DNA of 64,000 nt from Halpernia humi (lineage in GTDB: Bacteria; Bacteroidota; Bacteroidia; Flavobacteriales; Weeksellaceae): the NCBI RefSeq assembly GCF_900108025.1, contig NZ_FNUS01000006.1, forward strand, positions 124,001 to 188,000, read 5' to 3'. The notes beneath the pieces were generated by a model that did not search any database, had not been told where the DNA came from, and saw only the letters and a list, made by a program, of their open reading frames with translations. The position numbers and the translations under genes were made by a program. How positions within the stretch are numbered: the first letter of the stretch is position 1; each line of letters starts with the position of its first letter. Shown here one piece after another: positions 3,919-62,456 of this stretch.

Positions 3919-4968
3919 TTGAATCGTATTCTTCCTAATCTCAATCCACTGCGATTTTTTTTGGCTTTGCTAGTAGTTCTTTTTCATGTACCTAAATTTG
4001 CTGAAAATAGAGGTGTTCCTTTTTATTATGATGCCGCTTTTTTTCAAAAGGGAACAGAAGCGGTTTATCTTTTTTTTTCTTTGAGTGGCTTTTTAATCAT
4101 TAGAAATCTTTATGACGAAAGAGTAAACAAGGGAAAAATTGTTTTGAAAAATTTTTATATGCGCCGTATTTTAAGAATTTTTCCGCTCTACTATTTGGTT
4201 TTTATTGTTGGTTTGTTATACTATCAGTTTATTTTGCCGCATTTAGGGTATGATTTTAAATCAGATTACCCTTTGTTTAATGCCATTGCATTGGGCATTT
4301 TTTTCTTACCAAATATCTTGGCTGCTATTTATCATCCAGGTGGGATTTTAGAAATATTATGGTCTATTGGTATTGAAGAACAATTTTACCTTTTTATTGC
4401 GCCTTTATTCTTATGGTTTAAAAATATAAGGAAAATATTAATCGTTTTTTCGATTTTGTATGGCTTCGTTTTTTTTAGCAATATCTTTCCTTTTCTGCAA
4501 GCGTTTAGCATGGTGTTTTTTTTCTTTACCATTAGTGGTCTCATTTCAATTTTATCGGATAAGATTATACTTCCAAAATTTGTAAAATATCTGCTTTCTA
4601 TCCTCTTAATTCTTTATTTCACTACAAATTGGTTTGTCTTTAGAAATGATATTGTTTATGATCTTTACAGCAGTATTTTATTCGCGTTCTTCTTGCATAG
4701 CATTAGTGTAAAACCGTTATTTATAATCCGAAATAGACAGTTGAATTATTTAGGGAAAATTTCTTACGGTATTTATATGTATCATGCAATAGCGATACAA
4801 ATCGTATTCTTTTTTATTTTAAAAATACATTTTAATTCTTTTCCATCGCCAGCTATTTATATTTTTACATACTTGCTTAGCGTTATATTTTTAACTTTAT
4901 TATTGGCGGGTTTTTCTTACGAATATTACGAAAAGTATTTTCTTAAACTCAAAAATAACTTCAGATAG
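3919..4968 (+). CDS. Acyltransferase 3 family membrane protein (OafA-like)
   Basis: A 349-residue integral membrane protein with about ten hydrophobic helices, matching the acyltransferase-3 family that O-acetylates surface sugars or other envelope molecules. The catalytic-type His lies in VLFHVPKF near residue 23. SLSGFLIIRNLYDER (near 55-70) and SIGIEEQFYLF (near 150) are the other two signature blocks. The first codon is TTG at 3919; no ATG exists until well inside the conserved block, so TTG is the only sensible start. The gene stands alone, divergent from dapA. The acceptor molecule is unknown; surface polysaccharide modification is an inference from the family. Confidence 0.88.
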   Translation: MNRILPNLNPLRFFLALLVVLFHVPKFAENRGVPFYYDAAFFQKGTEAVYLFFSLSGFLIIRNLYDERVNKGKIVLKNFYMRRILRIFPLYYLVFIVGLLYYQFILPHLGYDFKSDYPLFNAIALGIFFLPNILAAIYHPGGILEILWSIGIEEQFYLFIAPLFLWFKNIRKILIVFSILYGFVFFSNIFPFLQAFSMVFFFFTISGLISILSDKIILPKFVKYLLSILLILYFTTNWFVFRNDIVYDLYSSILFAFFLHSISVKPLFIIRNRQLNYLGKISYGIYMYHAIAIQIVFFFILKIHFNSFPSPAIYIFTYLLSVIFLTLLLAGFSYEYYEKYFLKLKNNFR

Positions 4969-5109
4969 AAGCCGAGTTTTAATGAATTTTAAACAATCAA
5001 AACTTCTGCAAAGTATATTTCTCGCTTTTTTATAAATTTTGCAAAGTAGCAACTGAAAAAATAGGTTTTCATTAATTAAAGATTTCGGTGTTATTTGTTG
5101 AACTTATTT

Positions 5110-5117
5110 TATATTTG
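5110..5117 (+). promoter_or_regulatory. Candidate -7 element for the 5'-nucleotidase pair
   Basis: TATATTTG matches TAnnTTTG and sits 21 nt before the ATG at 5139. TTG triplets occur at 5095-5100 but are closer than the usual -33 spacing. The element lies inside the stretch an upstream GTG start would make coding, which argues against that start. Confidence 0.4.
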
Positions 5118-5138
5118 CTTCAAAATTTATTTCAAAAT

Positions 5139-5885
5139 ATGAAGTCTAAAATTTTTCTGATCGTATTTTCGTCCCTTCTTTTATTCTCGTGCAGAGCGAA
5201 AATAGGAGTGGCAAAGGTTCACACAGAAAGCAATCACATTATTTCGTCAGAGTTAAAAGATGATCCAGCGTTTGATGCTGTGATTGCGCCATACAAAAAG
5301 AAATTAGCAGCAACCATGAATGCCGTAATTTCTCATACAAAAGTGGATCTTACAAAGAATGGAGAAAATAGTAATTTGGGAAATCTTTTGGCAGATTATA
5401 CCTTTGAAGGTGCGGCCGAGTGGGCAAAAAAAAATAATAAACCTGCGGTGGATGCTGCTGTAATAAATATTGGAGGAATACGTTCTACAATTGGCAAGGG
5501 CAATATTTTACTTCGCCATGTTTTTGAAGTGATGCCTTTTGAAAATGAAGTAGTAATCATGAAACTGAAAGGTTCGGATTTGCAAGGCTTGTTTGATTAT
5601 TATGCGAAAACACAAAAAAACAATCCAGTTTCGCATCTTTTTATAGAAACAGAAGCGGGCAAAATTACGAAGGAGAGCATTAATGGAGAAAAAATAGATC
5701 CCAGCAAAGACTATTATATTGCAACTTCAGATTATTTAGCTTTTGGAGGCGATAATATGGTTTTTTTTAAAAAAGGAGAGATGATTTCGACCGGCATTAA
5801 ATTACGGGATTTATTTGTAGAAAAATTTAAAGAAAATCCTGAAGTTTCTGCTCCAGAAGATGTAAGAGTTAGTTTTAAAAAATAA
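5139..5885 (+). CDS. 5'-nucleotidase C-terminal (substrate-binding) domain lipoprotein
   Basis: A 248-residue protein corresponding only to the C-terminal half of UshA/NutA-type 5'-nucleotidases. The ATG at 5139 gives a lipoprotein signal (MKSKIFLIV...LLLFSC, lipid-modified Cys18). A GTG at 5088 in the same frame would bury that signal behind 17 extra residues and is rejected. Family blocks are VINIGGIRSTI, the RHVFEVMPFENEVV segment and SDYLAFGGDNMVFF, which form the nucleotide-binding domain. The catalytic metallophosphatase half is the next gene, 14 nt downstream, so the two probably form a heteromeric periplasmic nucleotidase that liberates nucleosides and phosphate. The lipid anchor could hold the partner at a membrane. 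Joint function is inferred from family and adjacency. Confidence 0.9.
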   Translation: MKSKIFLIVFSSLLLFSCRAKIGVAKVHTESNHIISSELKDDPAFDAVIAPYKKKLAATMNAVISHTKVDLTKNGENSNLGNLLADYTFEGAAEWAKKNNKPAVDAAVINIGGIRSTIGKGNILLRHVFEVMPFENEVVIMKLKGSDLQGLFDYYAKTQKNNPVSHLFIETEAGKITKESINGEKIDPSKDYYIATSDYLAFGGDNMVFFKKGEMISTGIKLRDLFVEKFKENPEVSAPEDVRVSFKK

Positions 5886-5899
5886 AAAAGTAGAAGGTA

Positions 5900-6850
5900 A
5901 TGAATAGAAAAACTTTTATTAAAACCATTTCTGGCGGAACTTTAGTTGCGGCTTTAGCACCTAATATTTTGATGGCGCAAAATCCAACTTTTTTAAATAA
6001 AAAAACACTGCGTAAACTCACGATTTTGCACACCAATGATCAACACAGCAGAATTGAGCCCTTCGATGCATCTTATACCAAGAACCCAAACCAAGGCGGT
6101 TTTGCAAGACGTGCAAGTTTAATAGAAAGCATTAGAAATAAAGAAAGCAACGTACTTTTGGTAGATTCTGGCGATACGTTTCAAGGAACGCCTTATTTTA
6201 ATTTTTTCGGGGGCGAATTAGAATTTCGATTAATGAGCATGATGGGATACGAAGCCTCAACTTTGGGAAATCATGATTTTGATAATGGCTTGGAAGGTTT
6301 CCTGAAAGTACAACCTAATGCAAAATTTCCGTTTATTTGCTCTAATTATGATTTTAAAAACACTATTTTAGACGGGCAAACAATTCCGTACAAAATTTTA
6401 GACAAAAAGGGTATAAAAGTTGGCTTGTTTGGGCTTGGTGTAGAATTGGAAGGTTTAGTCGGCAAAAAAAATTATGGCGAAACCAAATATTTGGATCCAG
6501 TTGAAATTTCTAATCATTACGCAGATTTTTTAAAAAATGAAAAAAAATGTGATTTGGTAATTTGCCTTTCACATATTGGCTACGAATATGAAAATGATGC
6601 GAAGAAAATTTGTGATAAAAAATTAGTTGCGCAAACCGAAAATATAGATTTAATTTTAGGCGGGCATACGCACACTTTTTTTAAAGAGCCAGAAGTTTTT
6701 AAAAATAAAAATGATAAAAATGTGCTGGTAAATCAAGTAGGATGGGCGGGTTTGCTTTTAGGACGATTAGATTATTACTTTGATGATAATAGAAAAATAC
6801 AAAATATCGCGTGGAATAATCAGGTGATAGACGAACATATTTTGGTATAA
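5900..6850 (+). CDS. 5'-nucleotidase/UshA-type metallophosphatase, catalytic domain only
   Basis: A 316-residue calcineurin-like phosphoesterase holding the catalytic half of a 5'-nucleotidase. Metal-binding motifs are in order: ILHTNDQHSR near 42-51, DSGDTFQGTPYF near 90-101, TLGNHDFDNG near 121-130, CLSHIGYEYE near 215 and GGHTHTFF near 253. The N-terminus (MNRKTFIKTISGG, then a hydrophobic stretch) looks like a Tat-type signal with an RK rather than RR pair, so export of a folded metalloprotein is plausible. It lacks the C-terminal substrate-binding domain, which the preceding lipoprotein gene encodes separately. The porZ gene starts 5 nt after its stop, suggesting co-transcription. Confidence 0.92.
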   Translation: MNRKTFIKTISGGTLVAALAPNILMAQNPTFLNKKTLRKLTILHTNDQHSRIEPFDASYTKNPNQGGFARRASLIESIRNKESNVLLVDSGDTFQGTPYFNFFGGELEFRLMSMMGYEASTLGNHDFDNGLEGFLKVQPNAKFPFICSNYDFKNTILDGQTIPYKILDKKGIKVGLFGLGVELEGLVGKKNYGETKYLDPVEISNHYADFLKNEKKCDLVICLSHIGYEYENDAKKICDKKLVAQTENIDLILGGHTHTFFKEPEVFKNKNDKNVLVNQVGWAGLLLGRLDYYFDDNRKIQNIAWNNQVIDEHILV

Positions 6851-6855
6851 TATTT

Positions 6856-9093
6856 ATGAAAAAAAAATTAATTCTTTTTTGCTTAATCTTCGGATTAAGT
6901 TTAATTAAAAGTCAAATAATTTCTTCGGGAAAATGGAGCGATTTGTTTTCTTACAATAATGTCTTGGTAATGCGCGAAGACACAGACAAAATTATTGCAG
7001 CAACAGAAAACGGTATTTTCTATTACACTCCTTCTTCGGGTGAAGTGAAAAAATTATCAAAAGCGAACGGTTTGCATGACGTTAAAATATCCGCTTTTGA
7101 TTATAATCCTGTTACAAAAATAGGATTGGTAGGTTATGTTTCTGGTGCTTTAGATGTTATAACGCCAGATGGTATTTTTTTAATAGTAGATATTCCTATT
7201 GCAACTGGCTACACGGGTACAAAAAAAATAAATCACATATCAATTTCTGGTAATGATGCTGTAGTATCTGTTGGGTATGGTGTTTCTATTTTTAAATTAG
7301 ATAAAAGAGAATTTGCAGATACTTCATTTTTCAGTAATGGCGGTGTTTACACGGCGGCAAATGAATCGGTTATTAAAGATAACGTAGTTTATACGGCAAC
7401 ATCAACAGGTTTGAGGTCTCACGAGATGAATGTAACATTCCCAATTTTTAGTTCTTGGGCCACACCAATTTCTGGTAATTTCACCCAAATTTCAGCAGAT
7501 AATGATATTTATGTTGGAAACGCAACGCAAGTATTCAAAGGAAGTGGCAATACTTTTAGTAGTTTTTTAACCGGAATTGGGGCCTTAAAAGATATTACTT
7601 CAACTGGTGGTAAAGTTATAATTGCGGACGGGCAAAAAGTCTCTCGATATTCGGATACTGGTGTTTTAGAGAAATCTATTGCAATTAATGAAAATGTAAA
7701 TACTGCAATACAGTTTCAAAACCAAATTTATACAGGTACAAAATTATCTGGTATTTTTGATGAAAGTTTGCAGCCTTACAAACCAGATGGACCTTACTCT
7801 AATATTTCCTACAAAATATCTTTATTAAATGATGAAATTTATGTGTCAACTGGTAGTAGAGATAATTATAATAATGCGATTTATAATGGCGTAGGCTACT
7901 ATCATTTTGATGGCACAAAGTGGAAATATCCACAAATGTTTATTGGCAATGGAAATCTTTATAATATTTTAGACGTTGCGCCAAACCCTAGCAAACCCGG
8001 CGAAGTATTTTTTACCAACTATACATTTACCACAAATAAAGGAATCTATAAAATGCAGGATGGTGTTTTTGTGAAAAAATATGATGATTATTCTCTAGGA
8101 CCTTTTTACAAAAGATCTATCGGGATAACTTTTGATGAAAATAATCAAATGTTTGTGACCAAATCGATTGATAATACTGCTGGAGGTTCTGCTATTTATG
8201 TTTATAATGCTGCGGCAGATAATTTCAGTCTATTAAACACCGTAGGAACAGGGGGAATGCAAAAACCATTTGCGAAAGATGGCGTGCTTTACGCTCCTGA
8301 ACCTTATGGCGATACAGGAGGAATGGTGATTTACGATTATAAAAACACAGCTTCAAATGCAAGTGATGATGTTTTTAAAATATTAACTAAAAGTAATAAT
8401 TTGCCTATAAATGGAACTGTAAGTGCTGTTTTGGATAATAATGACGATTTGTGGATTGGAAGTAGAGGCGGTTTAAGAATTTTGCAAAACCCAAAAGATG
8501 CAATTACCGCAGATTCTCCACAAACTGAAGATATTGTAATTGAGCAAAACGGAATTCCAGAGGAATTATTTCGGGATAATACGGTGTTGCAAATTGAAGT
8601 AGATTCTGGAAACCAGAAATGGGTTTCTGTTGATGGCGGTGGCGTTTTTTACCTGAGTGATGATGGGCAACAAACTTTTGAGCATTTTACCAAAGCCAAT
8701 TCACCACTTCCTACCGATAGTGTTACAGATATAAAAGTCGATAAAAAAACAGGAAAAGTATATTTTGTGACACTTGATGGCATCGTAGTGTACCAAGGCG
8801 ATGCAGTAAATGTTACGTCTAATTTCGGCGACGTTTTAGTCTATCCAAACCCAGTAGTTTATGCCAATTATAAAGGCAATGTAAAAATTCGTGGTTTAGC
8901 GGAAAAAACAAATATCAGAATAACTGATGCTGCGGGAAATCTAGTGCACTCAGCCGTTGCAAGAGGTGGTTCTTATGAGTGGGATCTAAATAACCAACGT
9001 GGTCGCAGAGTTGCTTCTGGTATTTATTTTGTTTTGATGACCAATGAAGATGGTACAGACACTGCTACTGCAAAAATTGCCGTGGTGAATTAA
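6856..9093 (+). CDS. porZ: Type IX secretion system protein PorZ
   Basis: A 745-residue exported protein (signal peptide 1-19, ending IKSQ). Two beta-propeller-like blocks follow, with repeated short motifs such as IIAATENGIFYY, DLWIGSRGGLRIL and QKWVSVDGGGVFYL that resemble two-component-regulator propellers. The last ~85 residues form a type A C-terminal sorting domain (VYPNPV..., ASGIYFVLM near the end). This layout matches PorZ, part of the cell-surface attachment complex that delivers A-LPS and cleaves sorting tails of type IX cargo. The PorZ-RecO neighbourhood, 6 nt apart here, is one I recall from other flavobacteria. Its own sorting domain means it is itself carried by the system. gldKLMN lies about 8 kb downstream. 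Confidence 0.88.
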   Translation: MKKKLILFCLIFGLSLIKSQIISSGKWSDLFSYNNVLVMREDTDKIIAATENGIFYYTPSSGEVKKLSKANGLHDVKISAFDYNPVTKIGLVGYVSGALDVITPDGIFLIVDIPIATGYTGTKKINHISISGNDAVVSVGYGVSIFKLDKREFADTSFFSNGGVYTAANESVIKDNVVYTATSTGLRSHEMNVTFPIFSSWATPISGNFTQISADNDIYVGNATQVFKGSGNTFSSFLTGIGALKDITSTGGKVIIADGQKVSRYSDTGVLEKSIAINENVNTAIQFQNQIYTGTKLSGIFDESLQPYKPDGPYSNISYKISLLNDEIYVSTGSRDNYNNAIYNGVGYYHFDGTKWKYPQMFIGNGNLYNILDVAPNPSKPGEVFFTNYTFTTNKGIYKMQDGVFVKKYDDYSLGPFYKRSIGITFDENNQMFVTKSIDNTAGGSAIYVYNAAADNFSLLNTVGTGGMQKPFAKDGVLYAPEPYGDTGGMVIYDYKNTASNASDDVFKILTKSNNLPINGTVSAVLDNNDDLWIGSRGGLRILQNPKDAITADSPQTEDIVIEQNGIPEELFRDNTVLQIEVDSGNQKWVSVDGGGVFYLSDDGQQTFEHFTKANSPLPTDSVTDIKVDKKTGKVYFVTLDGIVVYQGDAVNVTSNFGDVLVYPNPVVYANYKGNVKIRGLAEKTNIRITDAAGNLVHSAVARGGSYEWDLNNQRGRRVASGIYFVLMTNEDGTDTATAKIAVVN

Positions 9094-9099
9094 AATAAA

Positions 9100-9789
9100 A
9101 TGACCAAAAAGAAAGGCTTTCTGTTATCTTATTTGAAATTTGGGGACAATGATGCAATTCTTCATTGTTTTACCAATAATGAAGGTTTTGAAAGTTTTTA
9201 TCTCCGCGGAATCTATGCTTCAAAAAATAAAAAAAAAGCCTTGCTTACGCCGCTAGCAGAACTTTATTTAGATCTAAATTTAAAACGTAAATCAACTGCT
9301 CTTCAACTCTTAAATCAAATAGAAAAAGTAGGCTCTGGAAGTACAGATTTTAACGTAAAAACGGCGTCGATTTTATTTTTTACAGCAGATTTTTTAAATC
9401 AAGTTTTAAAAAACGAAAATGCACAAAATTTAATTTACCGAGAGATAGAATTATTTATTTTTGAAGTAAAAGCGGGTAATTTGCAAGCCCACCTCATATT
9501 TTTATTTAAAATATTGCAACTTCTGGGTTACGCGCCACTTCTTGTTCAGGGAGATTTTTTAGATTTAGAAACAGGTGCTTTTAGCAATCAACTGTCTCAC
9601 CAGAATTTTAATTCAGAAATATCTAAAATTTGGAAAACAATTTTGGAAACTAATGGAGATTATACCTTGCAGATTCCCAAAAACAAAAGCAGAGAATTGC
9701 TAAATTCTCTGCTCATTTACTATCAATTTCATATTGAAAATTTCAAAATTCCGGTTTCGCTAGAAATTGTGAAAGAAATATTTCAGTAA
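9100..9789 (+). CDS. recO: DNA repair protein RecO
   Basis: A 229-residue RecO. The N-terminal OB-fold is recognisable in KGFLLSYLKFGDNDAILHCFT and ESFYLRGIYASKNKKKALLTPLAELYLDL. A helical C-terminal domain follows, including IFLFKILQLLGYAPLL. RecO works with RecF and RecR to load RecA onto SSB-coated DNA and anneals strands in gap repair. The zinc-binding Cys cluster of some RecO proteins is missing, as I recall is usual in this phylum. Start ATG at 9100, 6 nt after porZ, suggests co-transcription. The stop lies only 3 nt from the stop of the convergent lipoprotein gene. Confidence 0.9.
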   Translation: MTKKKGFLLSYLKFGDNDAILHCFTNNEGFESFYLRGIYASKNKKKALLTPLAELYLDLNLKRKSTALQLLNQIEKVGSGSTDFNVKTASILFFTADFLNQVLKNENAQNLIYREIELFIFEVKAGNLQAHLIFLFKILQLLGYAPLLVQGDFLDLETGAFSNQLSHQNFNSEISKIWKTILETNGDYTLQIPKNKSRELLNSLLIYYQFHIENFKIPVSLEIVKEIFQ

Positions 9790-11595: not shown

Positions 11596-11668
11596 GACTC
11601 GGTAGCTCAGCTGGTAGAGCAATACACTTTTAATGTATGGGTCCTGGGTTCGAATCCCAGCCGGGTCA
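11596..11668 (+). tRNA. tRNA-Lys (anticodon TTT), copy 1
   Basis: A 73-nt cloverleaf. The acceptor stem GACTCGG/CCGGGTC contains one T-G pair. The D arm is GCTC/GAGC, the anticodon stem ATACA/TGTAT with loop CTTTTAA, and the T arm CTGGG/CCCAG with TTCGAAT. The anticodon TTT is at 11629-11631. CCA is not encoded. It is identical to the copy at 11865-11937. Confidence 0.97.
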
Positions 11669-11684
11669 CAATAACAAGAAGTTT

Positions 11685-11720
11685 CCGTCTAGTTATTTGC
11701 TTAACGAGACGGTTTTTTTT
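11685..11720 (+). terminator. Hairpin with T-run between tRNA-Lys and tRNA-Leu
   Basis: CCGTCT pairs with AGACGG and, after one A-G mismatch, GTTA pairs with TAAC. Eight Ts follow at 11713-11720. It has the form of an intrinsic terminator, but the next base, 11721, is the first base of tRNA-Leu. It may be a partial terminator or a processing hairpin. Confidence 0.7.
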
Positions 11721-11803
11721 GCCTGTGTGGTGAAATTGGTAGACACGCCATCTTGAGGGGGTGGTTTCCTATGGATGTGCTGGTTCGAGTCCAGTCGCAG
11801 GCA
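11721..11803 (+). tRNA. tRNA-Leu (anticodon GAG)
   Basis: An 83-nt class II tRNA. The acceptor stem is GCCTGTG/CGCAGGC, the D arm GTG...CAC, and the anticodon stem CCATC/GGTGG with loop TTGAGGG. The anticodon GAG is at 11755-11757. A long variable arm is present, and the T loop is TTCGAGT. CCA is not encoded. No separate promoter is visible upstream because the preceding hairpin and T-run occupy that space. Confidence 0.95.
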
Positions 11804-11864
11804 CAGAGCGATATAATTTTTATTAAAAAAATTACCAATAATTATCAAAATTATTAACATTCCC

Positions 11865-11937
11865 GACTCGGTAGCTCAGCTGGTAGAGCAATACACTTTT
11901 AATGTATGGGTCCTGGGTTCGAATCCCAGCCGGGTCA
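11865..11937 (+). tRNA. tRNA-Lys (anticodon TTT), copy 2
   Basis: Identical over all 73 bases to the copy at 11596-11668. It lies 61 nt after tRNA-Leu, with no good promoter in between, so it is probably co-transcribed with it. Confidence 0.97.
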
Positions 11938-11985
11938 CAATTTACGCGAGTAAATTTTCATAACATATTTGGTGATTTGGTTTAA

Positions 11986-36574: not shown

Positions 36575-36578
36575 AATA

Positions 36579-36655
36579 GATGTTAGACGTTAGATGTTAG
36601 ATGTTAGACGTTAGACGTTAGATGTTAGACGTTAGATGTTAGATGTTAGATGTTA
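36579..36655. repeat. Heptanucleotide tandem repeat (11 copies of GAYGTTA)
   Basis: Eleven contiguous 7-bp units read GATGTTA or GACGTTA, in the order T-C-T-T-C-C-T-C-T-T-T at the third base. The array begins 5 nt after the glyA stop and ends about 100 nt before the recX-like ATG. A seven-base unit is prone to slippage. It is non-coding here. Confidence 0.95.
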
Positions 36656-36759
36656 GATAAATAGGTTAAATTTTAATTTTAAAGACCAAAACCATCGATC
36701 AAAAATCCACAATTGACAAGCAAAAGAAATCTTACACTTTTGAAGAGATAAAACAAAAA

Positions 36760-55593: not shown

Positions 55594-56667
55594 TTGAAAT
55601 TACTCTACATCACAAATGGCATCACAGGTTCTGGCGGACTCGAAAGAGTTTTGGCCGTGAAAACTGCGCTATTGGTAGAAAATTTTGGCTATGAAATTCA
55701 TATATTAAGTTTAAATGAAAACGGAAAAGCGACTTTTTTTAAATTTTCTGATAAAATTAAAAGACATTCCATAGAAATTTCTGGCAATAAATTTCAGTAT
55801 TTTTTGAAGTACAAAAGTGGAATTCAGAAGATTGTAGATGAAGTTAAACCTGATGTTATTTCAGTTTGCGATGATGCTTTGAAAGGTTTTTTTCTTCCTT
55901 ATTTAATTAAGACCAAATCGAAATGGATTCACGAAAGTCACGCTTCTTTTTTGTTGGGAAATAAAGGAAAAGGACTTCCCTTAAAGAAAAAAATACAACA
56001 CCAAATAAAGCAGATTTTAGGAAAAAACTTTTCGAAAATAATTTTGTTGACAGAAGCCAATAAAAAAGAATGGTCGCTGAAAAATTTGCTCGTTATTCCC
56101 AATCCTTTGTCATTTGAAAGCCAAGAAATTTCTTCTCTAAAAAACAAAAAAATAATTGCCGTCGGAAGTTATAGTTTTAACAAAGGCTATGATTTATTAT
56201 TAAAAATTTGGGCGAAAATTGAAACCAATTTCCCAAATTGGGAACTCAATGTTTATGGTAGAAATACCAAAGAATATTTACAAACTGAGGCAGAGAATTT
56301 AAACTTAAAAAACATTCATTTTTTTTCTTCGGTTCCGGATATTGAAAAAAAATATGTAGAATCTTCTTTTTTGGTTTTGCCATCGCGTTCGGAAGGTTTC
56401 GGAATGGTTTTGATAGAAGCGATGAGTTGCGGTTTGCCAGTCATCAGTTTTGATTGTCCGCACGGTCCGAAGGAAATTATCAGCAACGGAAAAGATGGTT
56501 TTTTAATAGAAAATGGAAATATAGATGAATTTTCAACAAAAATAAAAACGCTTATAAATGATGAAAATTTACGGCAAGAAATGGGGAAAGCGGCGAAATT
56601 AAATTCAAAGAAATTTAATGCGGAAACAATTGTGAAACAGTGGGATGAACTTTTTAAAAAAATATAA
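55594..56667 (+). CDS. Glycosyltransferase family 4
   Basis: A 357-residue GT-B enzyme with a TTG start at 55594, 8 nt after the previous stop; the opening KLLYITNGITGSGGLERVLAVKTALL is complete, so the TTG is sound. IIAVGSYSFNKGYDLLLKIWAKI near 187-209 and SEGFGMVLIEAMSCGLPVISFDCPHGPKEII near 269-299 are the donor-domain blocks with the EX7E pair. Its layout, including the FDCPHGPKEII loop, resembles GalNAc/Gal-type GT4 enzymes of capsule loci, but donor is not provable. It is clearly related to the next gene. Confidence 0.9.
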   Translation: MKLLYITNGITGSGGLERVLAVKTALLVENFGYEIHILSLNENGKATFFKFSDKIKRHSIEISGNKFQYFLKYKSGIQKIVDEVKPDVISVCDDALKGFFLPYLIKTKSKWIHESHASFLLGNKGKGLPLKKKIQHQIKQILGKNFSKIILLTEANKKEWSLKNLLVIPNPLSFESQEISSLKNKKIIAVGSYSFNKGYDLLLKIWAKIETNFPNWELNVYGRNTKEYLQTEAENLNLKNIHFFSSVPDIEKKYVESSFLVLPSRSEGFGMVLIEAMSCGLPVISFDCPHGPKEIISNGKDGFLIENGNIDEFSTKIKTLINDENLRQEMGKAAKLNSKKFNAETIVKQWDELFKKI

Positions 56668-57793
56668 AAAAGTGAAAATTCTCTATCTCACAGATCAAGT
56701 TTATCTTCATGGGGGCATTGAAAAAGTGCTTTCCCAGAAGGCTAATTATTTTGCAGATAGTTCTGGTGATGAGGTTTTTATTGTGACTTATAATCAAGAA
56801 GGAAAAACGCCGGTTTATGATTTTAGTTCAAAAATTATTTGGGAAGATTTGGCAATTAATTATGAAATTGGGAAAAGTTATTTCCACCCTAAAAATTTAA
56901 AAAAAATCCCGAAACATATTTCTGCTTTGAAGGATGTTTTGGGAAAAATAAATCCAGATGTTGTAATAAGTTCAAGTTTCGGTCCCGATTTTTATTTTTT
57001 GCCTTATATCAGAAAAAATAGTCCTAAAATTAAAGAATTTCATGGTTCCCGTTATTTTTATGAAAAGCAGGAAAGTGGCTTCAAAAAAAGATTATTGCAT
57101 CTTCTAAATAAAATAATTGAAAAAAAATACACTTCGATTGCGGTTTTAAATGAAGATGAACAAAATTTCTATACGAACGACAACATTGCAGTCATTCCAA
57201 ATCCAGCGGAAATTTCTGATAAACGCGCCGGTTTAAAATCGAAGAAAATAATGGCTGCTGGAAGAATTTCACCGGTTAAAAATTTTGGTGATTTAATAGA
57301 AATATTTTCAAAAATTAGTAAAGATTTTCCCGAGTGGGAATTGCATTTTTTTGGTGAAGATTATCTTGGAACTCAGCAATTATTAGAACATAAAATTGCA
57401 GAATTTGGTCTACAAAATCAAATAAAATTTAAAGGAAATGTTCCAGATTTAAAAAGTGAAATGCAAAATTACAGCATTTACGCCATGACTTCTGAAACCG
57501 AATGTTTCCCGATGGTTTTGTTAGAATCGCTTTCTATAGGTTTGCCGATCATAAGTTATGATTGCCCAACCGGACCAAAATATATCGTGAAAAACGAGGA
57601 AGATTCTTTTCTTATTCCTAATAAAAATTTAGATATTTTTACTGAAAAATTAAAATTATTAATGGAAAATGAGCAACTTCGGCAAGAATTGAGCAAACGA
57701 GGTTTAGAGAATGTTTCTCGTTTTGAAATTAATATTGTGATGAAGCAATGGCAAAATTTGTTCGAAAAAGTCAGTTCAAGTGGAAAGAAGTAG
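56645..57793 (+). CDS. Glycosyltransferase family 4
   Basis: A 382-residue GT-B enzyme. KILYLTDQVYLHGGIEKVLSQKANYF carries the acceptor loop. IMAAGRISPVKNFGDLIEIFSKI near 203 and TECFPMVLLESLSIGLPIISYDCPTGPKYIV near 285-315 are the donor domain. An ATG at 56645 overlaps the preceding gene by 23 bp; a GTG at 56672, matching the MK-x-LY start of its neighbour, is an equally good start with a 4-nt gap. A segment of this gene (57602-57658, encoding DSFLIPNKNLDIFTEK) is repeated in decayed form about 1.3 kb downstream. Confidence 0.89.
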   Translation: MNFLKKYKKVKILYLTDQVYLHGGIEKVLSQKANYFADSSGDEVFIVTYNQEGKTPVYDFSSKIIWEDLAINYEIGKSYFHPKNLKKIPKHISALKDVLGKINPDVVISSSFGPDFYFLPYIRKNSPKIKEFHGSRYFYEKQESGFKKRLLHLLNKIIEKKYTSIAVLNEDEQNFYTNDNIAVIPNPAEISDKRAGLKSKKIMAAGRISPVKNFGDLIEIFSKISKDFPEWELHFFGEDYLGTQQLLEHKIAEFGLQNQIKFKGNVPDLKSEMQNYSIYAMTSETECFPMVLLESLSIGLPIISYDCPTGPKYIVKNEEDSFLIPNKNLDIFTEKLKLLMENEQLRQELSKRGLENVSRFEINIVMKQWQNLFEKVSSSGKK

Positions 57794-57819
57794 ATATTTT
57801 AAAAATTATAAATAACAGA

Positions 57820-58872
57820 GTGAAAAAATTCTTAATATCTCTTTTTTATTTGCTTACAAATCCTGTGAGAGCCGTGAAAATTATGAGTTTGTATCGCTTT
57901 TTGAAAGGTAGATATAGAGCGACAATAATTTTGTCACATTCATACAGAGAGGCTTTTTACAGAAGAAAACAGGGAAGAAACAATCATTTAAAAGCAGCAG
58001 ATTTTAACAAAAAAAACACATTAGAAAATCAACAAATAATAATTAATATTCACGATGGTTTAATGCGTTCTGGAGGTTTAACAGATCGTTTAAAGGGAAT
58101 TTGCACGCTTTATATGTTCGCGAAAAAGAACAATTTTAAATTTAAAATTTATTTTATTTACCCATTTAATTTAGAAAAATACTTGGTGCCGAATAATTAT
58201 GATTGGTCAATAGAGGAAGATGAAATATATTATAATTTAACGAAAACAGCCATTTACACTTGGGAAAATGAAAAATTCGCTGGTGATTTTTTCCGATTGA
58301 ATAAATCTAAAGAACAACTACACGTCAGTTGTAATTCTGGGGAATGTTTTAATCATTATTCAGAATTATTTTTTGAACTGTTTAAGCCATCGCCATTTTT
58401 AGAATCTAAAATAGAATTTCATCGTCAAAAACTTGGTGGAGTGGGGAATTATATTTCAATGTCATTTCGTTTTCAAAATTTATTGGGCGAGTTTGAAGAA
58501 GGAAAAAGTACTGCTTTAAATGAAGAAAAACGAAAATTTTTAATAGAAAAATGCTTAATTGCGGTAAATAAAATTAAATTGAAACACAAAGATGCGAAAA
58601 AAATTTTGATAACTTCTGACAGTAATATTTTTCGAGAAATTGCTACAAAAACTTACGCCTATATTTACACCTATATTTTACCAGAAGAAGTAGGACATAT
58701 TGATTTTGCAGATGCAGGGAAAGGAAAAGAACTTACCGCATTTATGGATATGTTTCTAATTGCAGGTGCGGAAAAAGCCTATCAAATAAGAAGTGCAGAA
58801 ATGTATAACAGTGATTTTCCTAAAATGGCTGCAAAAATCAATAATGTGCCCTACGAAATGATTTTAATTTAA
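57820..58872 (+). CDS. Putative polysaccharide-locus transferase of unknown family
   Basis: A 350-residue protein I do not firmly recognise. After a hydrophobic N-terminal segment (KKFLISLFYLLTNPVRAVKIM) it has IIINIHDGLMRSGGLTDRLKGICTLYMFAKKNNF near 75-105. The GGLTDRLKG loop resembles the nucleotide-sugar loop of fucosyltransferase-like proteins (NodZ/GT11-type), and KKILITSDSNIFREIA near 265 looks like a second GT-B strand-turn. The start was placed at GTG 57820; an ATG at 57748 would overlap the GT4 gene by 46 bp with sequence that reads as an out-of-frame shadow. Position inside the locus supports a glycosyltransferase, but this is inference. Confidence 0.6.
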   Translation: MKKFLISLFYLLTNPVRAVKIMSLYRFLKGRYRATIILSHSYREAFYRRKQGRNNHLKAADFNKKNTLENQQIIINIHDGLMRSGGLTDRLKGICTLYMFAKKNNFKFKIYFIYPFNLEKYLVPNNYDWSIEEDEIYYNLTKTAIYTWENEKFAGDFFRLNKSKEQLHVSCNSGECFNHYSELFFELFKPSPFLESKIEFHRQKLGGVGNYISMSFRFQNLLGEFEEGKSTALNEEKRKFLIEKCLIAVNKIKLKHKDAKKILITSDSNIFREIATKTYAYIYTYILPEEVGHIDFADAGKGKELTAFMDMFLIAGAEKAYQIRSAEMYNSDFPKMAAKINNVPYEMILI

Positions 58873-58904
58873 TATTTCATCTCGTGAGGAAATTTCTTGA
58901 GACA

Positions 58905-58962
58905 GAATCTTTTATGATTCCTAAAAAAAAATTAGATATTTTTACTGAAAAAACTAATATTA
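58905..58962 (+). pseudogene. Relic of a GT4 glycosyltransferase gene
   Basis: In frame this segment encodes ESFMIPKKKLDIFTEKTNII, which matches DSFLIPNKNLDIFTEKLKLL of the GT4 gene at 56645 (57602-57658). Twenty-one consecutive bases around TTAGATATTTTTACTG are identical, and the alignment needs no gaps. The frame has no start and ends in TGA at 58968. It is the remains of a duplicated or replaced glycosyltransferase gene. Confidence 0.75.
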
Positions 58963-60057
58963 TTGTTTGATTGGGTTCCTTTAAGCAGTTATACTGCAAT
59001 TTACTATAATATAATGATGGTCTTGATGCTCATCACGCTTTTTCATTCTTATCAAAGCGATTTGTTTACAGTAAATACCAAAAATTTTGCTAAAATTTTG
59101 GGTCTTTTCAGTTTATTTTTAATCACTTTTTATTTAGGAACGCGCCCGGTAAGTTATCAATTTGGGGATATGTTGACTTATTCTAAATTTTATAATCGTA
59201 TTGTTGCTGGCGAAACTCCCATTGTTACAAAAGATTTTTTATTCAATTATTTTTTAATTTTTTGTGCCCATATAATTGGAGAACGCATTTTTTTCTTTAT
59301 TTGCGCTGTCATTTATATCATTCCTTGTTATGTTTTTTCTAAAAAATATTGCGGCTCATATTGGTATTTTGTTTTTTTTATTTTCATAGGTTCTTATATG
59401 TTTTGGCCATTTGGTACCAATGGAATAAGAAATGGTTTGGGAACTTCAATTTTCATATTAGCGCTTTGTTTTTATAACCGAAAAGTTGTTATGTATATTT
59501 TAATGGCTGTTTCTTTTGGTGTGCATAGTTCGCTTATAATCCCGATAGCGGCATTTTTTGTAGCGGGAGTTTATAAAAACCCTAAAGTTTATCTTTATAT
59601 TTGGGCTGCAGCAATTCCACTTTCCTTAGTTGGTGGTGGTTTTTGGGAAACTTTATTTGCAAGTATTGGTTTCGGTAGTGATTCTAGAGCGGTAGATTAT
59701 CTTACAAAAGGAAATGCATATCATGATCATTTTGCTTACACAGGATTTCGTTGGGATTTCTTGTTTTATTCTTCTTTTGCAGTTTTCGCTGGTTGGTATT
59801 TTATATTTAAGAAAAATATTACAGATAAATTTTACATCCATCTTTGGGGAATTTATATGATTGCCAATGCCTTTTGGATTTTAGTAATTCGCGCTAATTT
59901 TTCAAATCGTTTCGCCTATTTATCGTGGTTTTTAATGGCGCCCATTATTGCCTATCCTTTATTACGTTACAAAATGTTTCCGAATCAGTATAGAATAATA
60001 GGCATTGTTTTAGTGGTTTATTATATGTTCACTTATTTTATGTATTTAAAAGGATAA
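58963..60057 (+). CDS. EpsG family membrane protein (polymerase-like)
   Basis: A 364-residue membrane protein with about ten hydrophobic helices, matching EpsG, the presumed Wzy-type polymerase of exopolysaccharide systems. LITFYLGTRPVSYQFGDMLTYSKFYNRI near 53-80 carries the typical R-P...G-D-Y/T-x-x-Y motif, and FWPFGTNGIRNGLGTSIFILAL near 147-168 is the second signature (G-x-R-N/Q). The annotated TTG at 58963 is uncertain: it lies at the end of the GT4 relic, and an ATG pair at 59014 is also in frame but would cut the first helix. The next gene overlaps its stop by one base. Confidence 0.87.
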   Translation: MFDWVPLSSYTAIYYNIMMVLMLITLFHSYQSDLFTVNTKNFAKILGLFSLFLITFYLGTRPVSYQFGDMLTYSKFYNRIVAGETPIVTKDFLFNYFLIFCAHIIGERIFFFICAVIYIIPCYVFSKKYCGSYWYFVFFIFIGSYMFWPFGTNGIRNGLGTSIFILALCFYNRKVVMYILMAVSFGVHSSLIIPIAAFFVAGVYKNPKVYLYIWAAAIPLSLVGGGFWETLFASIGFGSDSRAVDYLTKGNAYHDHFAYTGFRWDFLFYSSFAVFAGWYFIFKKNITDKFYIHLWGIYMIANAFWILVIRANFSNRFAYLSWFLMAPIIAYPLLRYKMFPNQYRIIGIVLVVYYMFTYFMYLKG

Positions 60058-62056: not shown

Positions 62057-62090
62057 GTTCGATTATTAAACAATTTTAAAATATCAATAG

Positions 62091-62206
62091 GAATGGGCTT
62101 TAGCCCATTTTTTAAAATTATAGTAAAATTGGCTTTAGCCAAATCATATTTTAAGTTTCGGCTAAAGCCTTTTATTTCGCTAATTTTCACATCGGGCTAA
62201 AGCCCG
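62091..62206. repeat. Cluster of GGCTTTAGCC palindromes
   Basis: Four related elements stand within 116 bp: AATGGGCTTTAGCCCATT (62091-62108), TTGGCTTTAGCCAA (62128-62141), CGGCTAAAGCC (62158-62168) and TCGGGCTAAAGCCCGA (62191-62206). Three are near-perfect palindromes around GGCTTTAGCC or its complement. I recall the same core as a dispersed intergenic repeat in flavobacteria. They could fold as hairpins and end the upstream transcript, although no long T-run follows. Confidence 0.85.
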
Positions 62207-62403
62207 ACACAATTGATAAACATATAATGAATTGAATGTTAGTAAATTATATTTTAAATAACAATCGCACTCAGGTTAAAAATATCTAATCAATCTTTTT
62301 CAGCGCTTTTTCTCGTAGATGTTTAAAAGTTATTCTGATTAAATTTCATTAATGATTTGTAAAAGTATTTTTGTATAAAACTCTTATATTAAGCGTTTTA
62401 ATA
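62207..62403. other. Intergenic region, no gene recognised
   Basis: Together with the palindrome cluster this makes 400 bp without a gene between two GT4 genes. It is AT-rich. A TATTTTTG at 62366-62373 resembles a -7 box but has no -33 partner. No RNA gene or further repeat is visible. Confidence 0.55.
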
Positions 62404-62432
62404 TTGGTTTTATAAGAAAAGTTTTAACTTTG
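62404..62432 (+). promoter_or_regulatory. Promoter of the final GT4 gene
   Basis: TTG at 62404-62406, an 18-nt spacer, then TAACTTTG at 62425-62432: a full consensus match with the same spacing as the tRNA-Lys promoter. Transcription should begin near 62439, 18 nt before the ATG at 62457. Confidence 0.78.
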
Positions 62433-62456
62433 CAAAACAATTAATCATAAATGTGA

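Follow-up and report, generated by a model that had tools for sequence, protein, structure and literature searches.

A scrap of a glycosyltransferase gene before epsG, best read as the footprint of a gene-order change in a Halpernia humi polysaccharide locus

How does a short piece of a glycosyltransferase gene come to lie directly before an epsG-family gene, when the gene it resembles stands intact one gene upstream? The question arises in a window of 64,000 nucleotides from Halpernia humi (the whole stretch of DNA analysed here; contig NZ_FNUS01000006.1, positions 124,001 to 188,000). The locus is a polysaccharide cluster that includes Wzz/tyrosine-kinase-like and ABC-transporter proteins, several GT2 and GT4 glycosyltransferases, a pyruvyl transferase and the epsG-family gene, whose product we take, going by the family name, to be a polysaccharide polymerase-like membrane protein. 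The features concerned are as follows.

56645..57793, + strand: G, a GT4-type glycosyltransferase gene (PF00534, E 2.4e-32; PF13439, E 1.9e-9)
57601..57660, + strand: the stretch within intact G that matches the relic (alignment, own-genome search)
57794..57819, + strand: the 26-base G-H gap, in which no remnant of another gene can be recognised
57820..58872, + strand: H, an unrecognised putative transferase gene (61% identity with 8194-9237 of the Halpernia frigidisoli locus, L007)
58873..58903, + strand: spacer from the H stop to the relic, with no significant likeness to G and no other match in its own genome
58904..58964, + strand: the relic, read as a fragment of a second copy of G (alignment, shuffles, own-genome search)
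58963..60057, + strand: gene I of the epsG family, here called epsG (PF14897, E 8.3e-19; ten relatives at 44-74% identity)

In local alignment the relic pairs with its counterpart in G at 87% identity over 61 columns, with one 1-base insertion. It corresponds to G residues 319-339, contains an exact core of 21 bases (TTAGATATTTTTACTGAAAAA), and its final bases reach into the epsG start codon. The first-pass annotation of this DNA had pointed to a 20-residue match with a GT4 gene and a 21-bp core; alignment, shuffles and the own-genome search bear out both the position and the core. The same annotation had named a chance match as the finding that would overturn its reading. Chance similarity draws some plausibility from the composition of the window (68% A+T) and from the many short matches, up to ∼45 bits among the matches listed, that a family-wide search returns, but the scores lie far outside that range. 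The 90-base gap between H and epsG (58873-58962) scores 76 against G, a value reached by none of 2000 dinucleotide shuffles of the gap (mean 24.0, maximum 46); shuffled gaps compared with the rest of the window score 42 or less (n=100). When the gap is searched against its own genome, two matches are returned, the gap itself and the stretch in G (71.6 bits, E 9.9e-14, vs the ∼45-bit background among the matches listed). In the other 319 family genomes the best of the matches listed (53.6 bits) is the G ortholog of H. frigidisoli and all others listed are below 45 bits; at E 0.01 the gap has matches in at least 144 of the 320 genomes. Among 30 gaps of the window, delimited by mechanically called genes, this one also gives the strongest match to a gene elsewhere. 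A chance match is rejected on the shuffles and on the own-genome and family-wide searches, and its probability is negligible: the homology of the relic to its parent G exceeds chance.

Likeness to G on the 5' side of 58904 is unsupported, being equalled by 18% of shuffles. The relic and the matching G stretch are each 61% like the GT4 gene at 55594, which is ordinary paralogy. One candidate source elsewhere was set aside: the 3' half of the relic matches contig 5 of G001 (L014) at 28 of 31 bases, but 43.7 bits is the background level, and the match sits in a predicted gene that, by reading its sequence, resembles a methyltransferase.

What remains of the gene is slight. About 20 of the 382 G codons are left; the G frame persists for 16 codons and is then broken by the inserted base, so the relic is unable to encode the G product. 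Over these 16 codons it differs from G at five bases in four codons, and all four changed codons are replacements, as would suit dead DNA, with the comparable stretch amounting to 16 codons only. The relic is nearest to G of the window (43 of 48 bases). Among 26 orthologous G segments the best is that of H. frigidisoli (40 of 48) and the other 25 reach 38 or less, L102 having been excluded from this comparison for a gap. The variable sites group the relic with G at four positions, the relic with H. frigidisoli at one and G with H. frigidisoli at three, with all three different at one. Together, the site patterns and identities weakly favour an origin of the relic within the window's own line. 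They cannot date the event, because the segment is conserved by nature: the ortholog in L116, from another genus, is also identical to window G at 43 of 48 bases.

The place where the relic lies gains meaning from the gene order in relatives. The comparison set comprises 320 family genomes, including one other Halpernia genome, H. frigidisoli; NCBI taxonomy lists H. humi and H. marina as well in the genus. In 50 other family genomes the epsG match reaches E 1e-30 or better; five with weak matches (G014, G220, G074, G184, G040) were left out and 45 loci were examined, of which L119 and L122 have no epsG start at the threshold and were excluded to give a count of 43. G stands directly before epsG in 21 of the 43, H. 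frigidisoli among them, and there the alignment to G stops 9-95 bases short of epsG. Another six (L080, L082, L094, L095, L106, L111) have G with 559-2353 bases between it and epsG, and 16 have no G within the ∼4 kb examined. A first scan of ten epsG loci, which has genomes in common with the larger set, gave six with G adjacent, two with intervening DNA and two whose locus lacks an upstream G. For the more distant loci, G orthology means the best tblastn match only. Because the two genes adjoin in 21 of 43 loci (six of ten in the first scan), G-epsG adjacency is taken as the ancestral state, and the relic occupies that junction, the same place where relatives have an intact G.

These comparisons also bear on what was lost. 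Looking in relatives for an intact GT4 gene, as the annotation had proposed, does find one directly before epsG. Its idea of a lost third GT4 is right in that the relic is a real GT4 remnant; the gene in relatives, however, is the ortholog of the GT4 gene that survives at 56645, so that by inference the lost part is most of a second copy of G.

Gene H looks like the newcomer at this position. The H. frigidisoli locus runs G (4856-5962), epsG (6001-7098), a gene X (7100-8152) and H (8194-9237), which places H second downstream of epsG, whereas the window reads G-H-relic-epsG. H is found in two of the 320 family genomes, its own included, both of them Halpernia, and in five of 395 genomes of a sample of the order and three of 395 of a sample of the phylum, its own counted in each. 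It gave no match on plasmids, and among viral contigs none of 34 candidate stretches was confirmed. Since relatives keep G-epsG, and H is rare and lies after epsG in H. frigidisoli, the window order looks derived. The earlier proposal that a recombination simply put the unrecognised transferase gene in place of a GT4 unit does not survive the finding of its ortholog downstream of epsG, which makes this a difference of order; the accompanying claim of a cassette boundary does, as the relic sits where the old G-epsG junction has given way to G-H-relic-epsG.

The start of H is probably GTG 57820 and not ATG 57748 (which would give a 46-base overlap with G), because homology with the H. frigidisoli ortholog begins there. 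H has no meaningful match in Pfam, none in NCBIfam and no sequence match in the PDB, and an AlphaFold model based on two sequences cannot be used (mean pLDDT 36.5). A GG..DRLKGI stretch common to H and its relatives is, to our eye, presumably reminiscent of GT-B fucosyltransferases. Between the window and H. frigidisoli the amino acid and nucleotide identities are 61% and 69% for H, 64% and 70% for G, and 67% and 70% for epsG; three further genes of the locus, C, D and E, give 60% and 66%, 55% and 64%, and 65% and 69%. The divergence of H resembles that of its neighbours, which suits descent from one ancestor. On the simplest view, both species would have inherited H and the order would then have changed in the window's line. 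Gene J, the neighbour of epsG on its downstream side in the window, shares only 45% of its amino acids (58% of nucleotides) with the gene after H in H. frigidisoli and may not be the same gene; the region has therefore changed by more than one step. Gene X had no match in the window's genome in one search run without a positive control.

The relic is probably a dead remnant, from the 3' part of a second G copy, that stayed at the former G-epsG junction as H came between the two genes. The preferred route to the present order, which we infer, is tandem duplication with later loss. It would run as follows: (i) in an ancestor ordered G-epsG-..-H, a tandem duplication whose breakpoints fell within G (near residue 319) and immediately downstream of H would fuse the H end to the interior of a second G, giving G-epsG-..-H-g'-epsG-..-H; (ii) the first epsG block and the second H would be lost; (iii) a further loss of ∼170 bases, comprising the rest of g' and the spacer, would leave today's G-H-g'-epsG. 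The last figure is the sum of 133 bases of window G and the 38-base G-epsG spacer of H. frigidisoli. Such a duplication would explain both the abrupt start of the relic inside G shortly after H and its position on the epsG side, and the place where gene order departs from that of H. frigidisoli does carry a paralogous remnant. Counted against this reading are the 22 of 43 loci that do not have G directly before epsG. No trace of another epsG or another H is visible in the gaps of the window (the G-H gap is 26 bases long, and epsG and the next gene overlap by one base), and none of the epsG loci scanned has both copies of G. As the outgroups are without H, the direction of its move is read from G-epsG adjacency and nothing else. 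With no further remnant, intermediate genome or donor found, and one other Halpernia genome compared, the route stays one of reconstruction.

A single crossover with incoming DNA would produce the same geometry and fits almost as well as duplication. Here the 3' part of a relative's G, followed by H, would have recombined with the resident G, by single crossover or by homology-facilitated illegitimate insertion, so that the 3' end of today's G comes from the donor and the relic represents the resident gene's former 3' end. Two G segments flanking H as direct repeats are the pattern expected of such an insertion; H is rare (two of 320 family genomes and five of 395 in the order sample, its own counted in both); the G-epsG junction accepts inserts, with 559-2353 bases of other DNA there in six of 43 loci; and two alleles would explain at once the five differences in 48 bases between relic and G. 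The history of H speaks otherwise, however, as its divergence between the two Halpernia species is like that of neighbouring genes. No donor in which H follows the 3' end of G appeared in the order and phylum samples (395 genomes each) or in the loci of L045 and L048, the two of four distant H relatives in which neighbouring genes were read. A mosaic G was also looked for: by 60-codon block, its nucleotide identity to the H. frigidisoli ortholog is 0.76, 0.67, 0.63, 0.79, 0.67, 0.67 and 0.60, with no clear or sharp break at the relic position, which is a weak test. Donor insertion is a possible but less probable origin. Less probable still is that template switching or end-joining repair placed a short patch of G in the H-epsG gap, with no longer second copy ever present. 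The match is just 61 bases long, its 5' end is sharp and the DNA preceding it is unmatched, as expected of a patch, yet only coincidence would then explain why it lies at the junction where G ends in 21 of 43 relatives, between H and epsG and in the orientation of G. The relic has also been considered as DNA travelling with H and rejected, as the DNA following H in H. frigidisoli (137 bases) gives only a weak AT-rich likeness, with a score of 29.

It is very unlikely that the relic has been retained as a functional promoter or leader of epsG that formerly lay inside the end of G. An open frame of 18 codons also starts within it, at ATG 58914, and runs 8 bases into epsG. The relic has no sigma-70-like site in a scan that does not cover Bacteroidota promoters, and no Rfam match. 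The observation that would favour such a role comes from another genome, G281 (L088), where 36 bases lying 71-106 bases before epsG resemble the same part of G with a score of 40. This likeness is marginal: one of 200 dinucleotide shuffles reaches 40 (shuffle maximum 41), and five other upstream stretches retested do not rise above shuffles. Because the candidate was drawn from a screen of 22 loci, made with plain shuffles, it is only suggestive as a second scrap. G281 has no G match at E 1e-20, and so offers no G of its own for comparison. Three other screened loci were at or above the shuffle maximum, namely L110 and L103, whose matches fall inside long open frames, and L108, in which the stretch is nearly all covered by a GT4 gene like that at 55594.

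A wider reading would combine the duplication joint and complementary loss with a slot before epsG that recurrently rearranges and leaves scraps of G in more than one genus (in the window, perhaps in L088). We regard this as tentative and rather improbable. In L080, L082, L094, L095, L106 and L111, no scrap of the locus's own G rises above shuffles; these six insert-bearing loci therefore argue against scraps as a regular trace of inserts there.

Comparable cases are known. The account of the Streptococcus pneumoniae 33X cps locus describes a retained scrap like wcrG and wzx of serotype 10B, which its authors regard as possibly left by recombination at that site (PMC10782959). The window resembles that case in that a polysaccharide locus retains a scrap of an earlier locus; it differs in that the scrap here belongs to a neighbouring gene that is still whole, and in that the locus is flavobacterial. 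The tandem duplication-random loss model concerns gene-order change in animal mitochondria (PMC5745709). The likeness to that model is that order differs between relatives and a paralogous pseudogene fragment lies in the rearranged place. Unlike the mitochondrial cases, this is a bacterial polysaccharide locus in which only one of the expected remnants is seen and for which no intermediate is known, so membership is not claimed.

A literature search by title found nothing on this locus, which is a weak absence. The relic is best read as a real gene scrap, the footprint of a gene-order change in a polysaccharide locus and of a kind already known, for which a new mechanism is unnecessary. Such a footprint puts two states of a flavobacterial polysaccharide locus in sequence, with G-epsG as the old and G-H-epsG as the new. 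It is a small example of the glycosyltransferase shuffling around a polymerase-like gene by which surface polysaccharides diversify, and adds one instance while leaving the understanding of the process unchanged.

Some minor observations concern epsG itself. Its start is TTG in the window (58963) and, by eye, in six of eight relatives (L003, L005, L006, L007, L008 and L010, near 6001); it is ATG in L004 and GTG in L009. The DNA upstream of epsG differs among relatives despite the common TTG start. In L003, L005, L006 and L008 the spacer just before 6001 carries repeats like CAACCTTAACCTC, which are partly present in L006, a locus without G upstream. On contig 1 of G280 (1644025-1645100), epsG is matched in two overlapping pieces, the frame being seemingly broken.

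Other parts of the window hold repeats of several kinds. An intergenic tandem array at 2249-2654 has units of ∼66-79 bases, with periods of 66, 79 and 145. A pair of identical 77-base stretches at 11596-11941 proves to be two tRNA-Lys genes, which enclose a tRNA-Leu. The 7-base unit TAGATGT is repeated about 12 times at 36577-36658, ∼2 kb before the Wzz-like gene. The gap between two GT4 genes at 62057-62456 contains palindromes (GGGCTTTAGCCC/GGCTTTAGCC) and an imperfect inverted repeat of 139 columns, and has an RNA fold z-score of -4.5.
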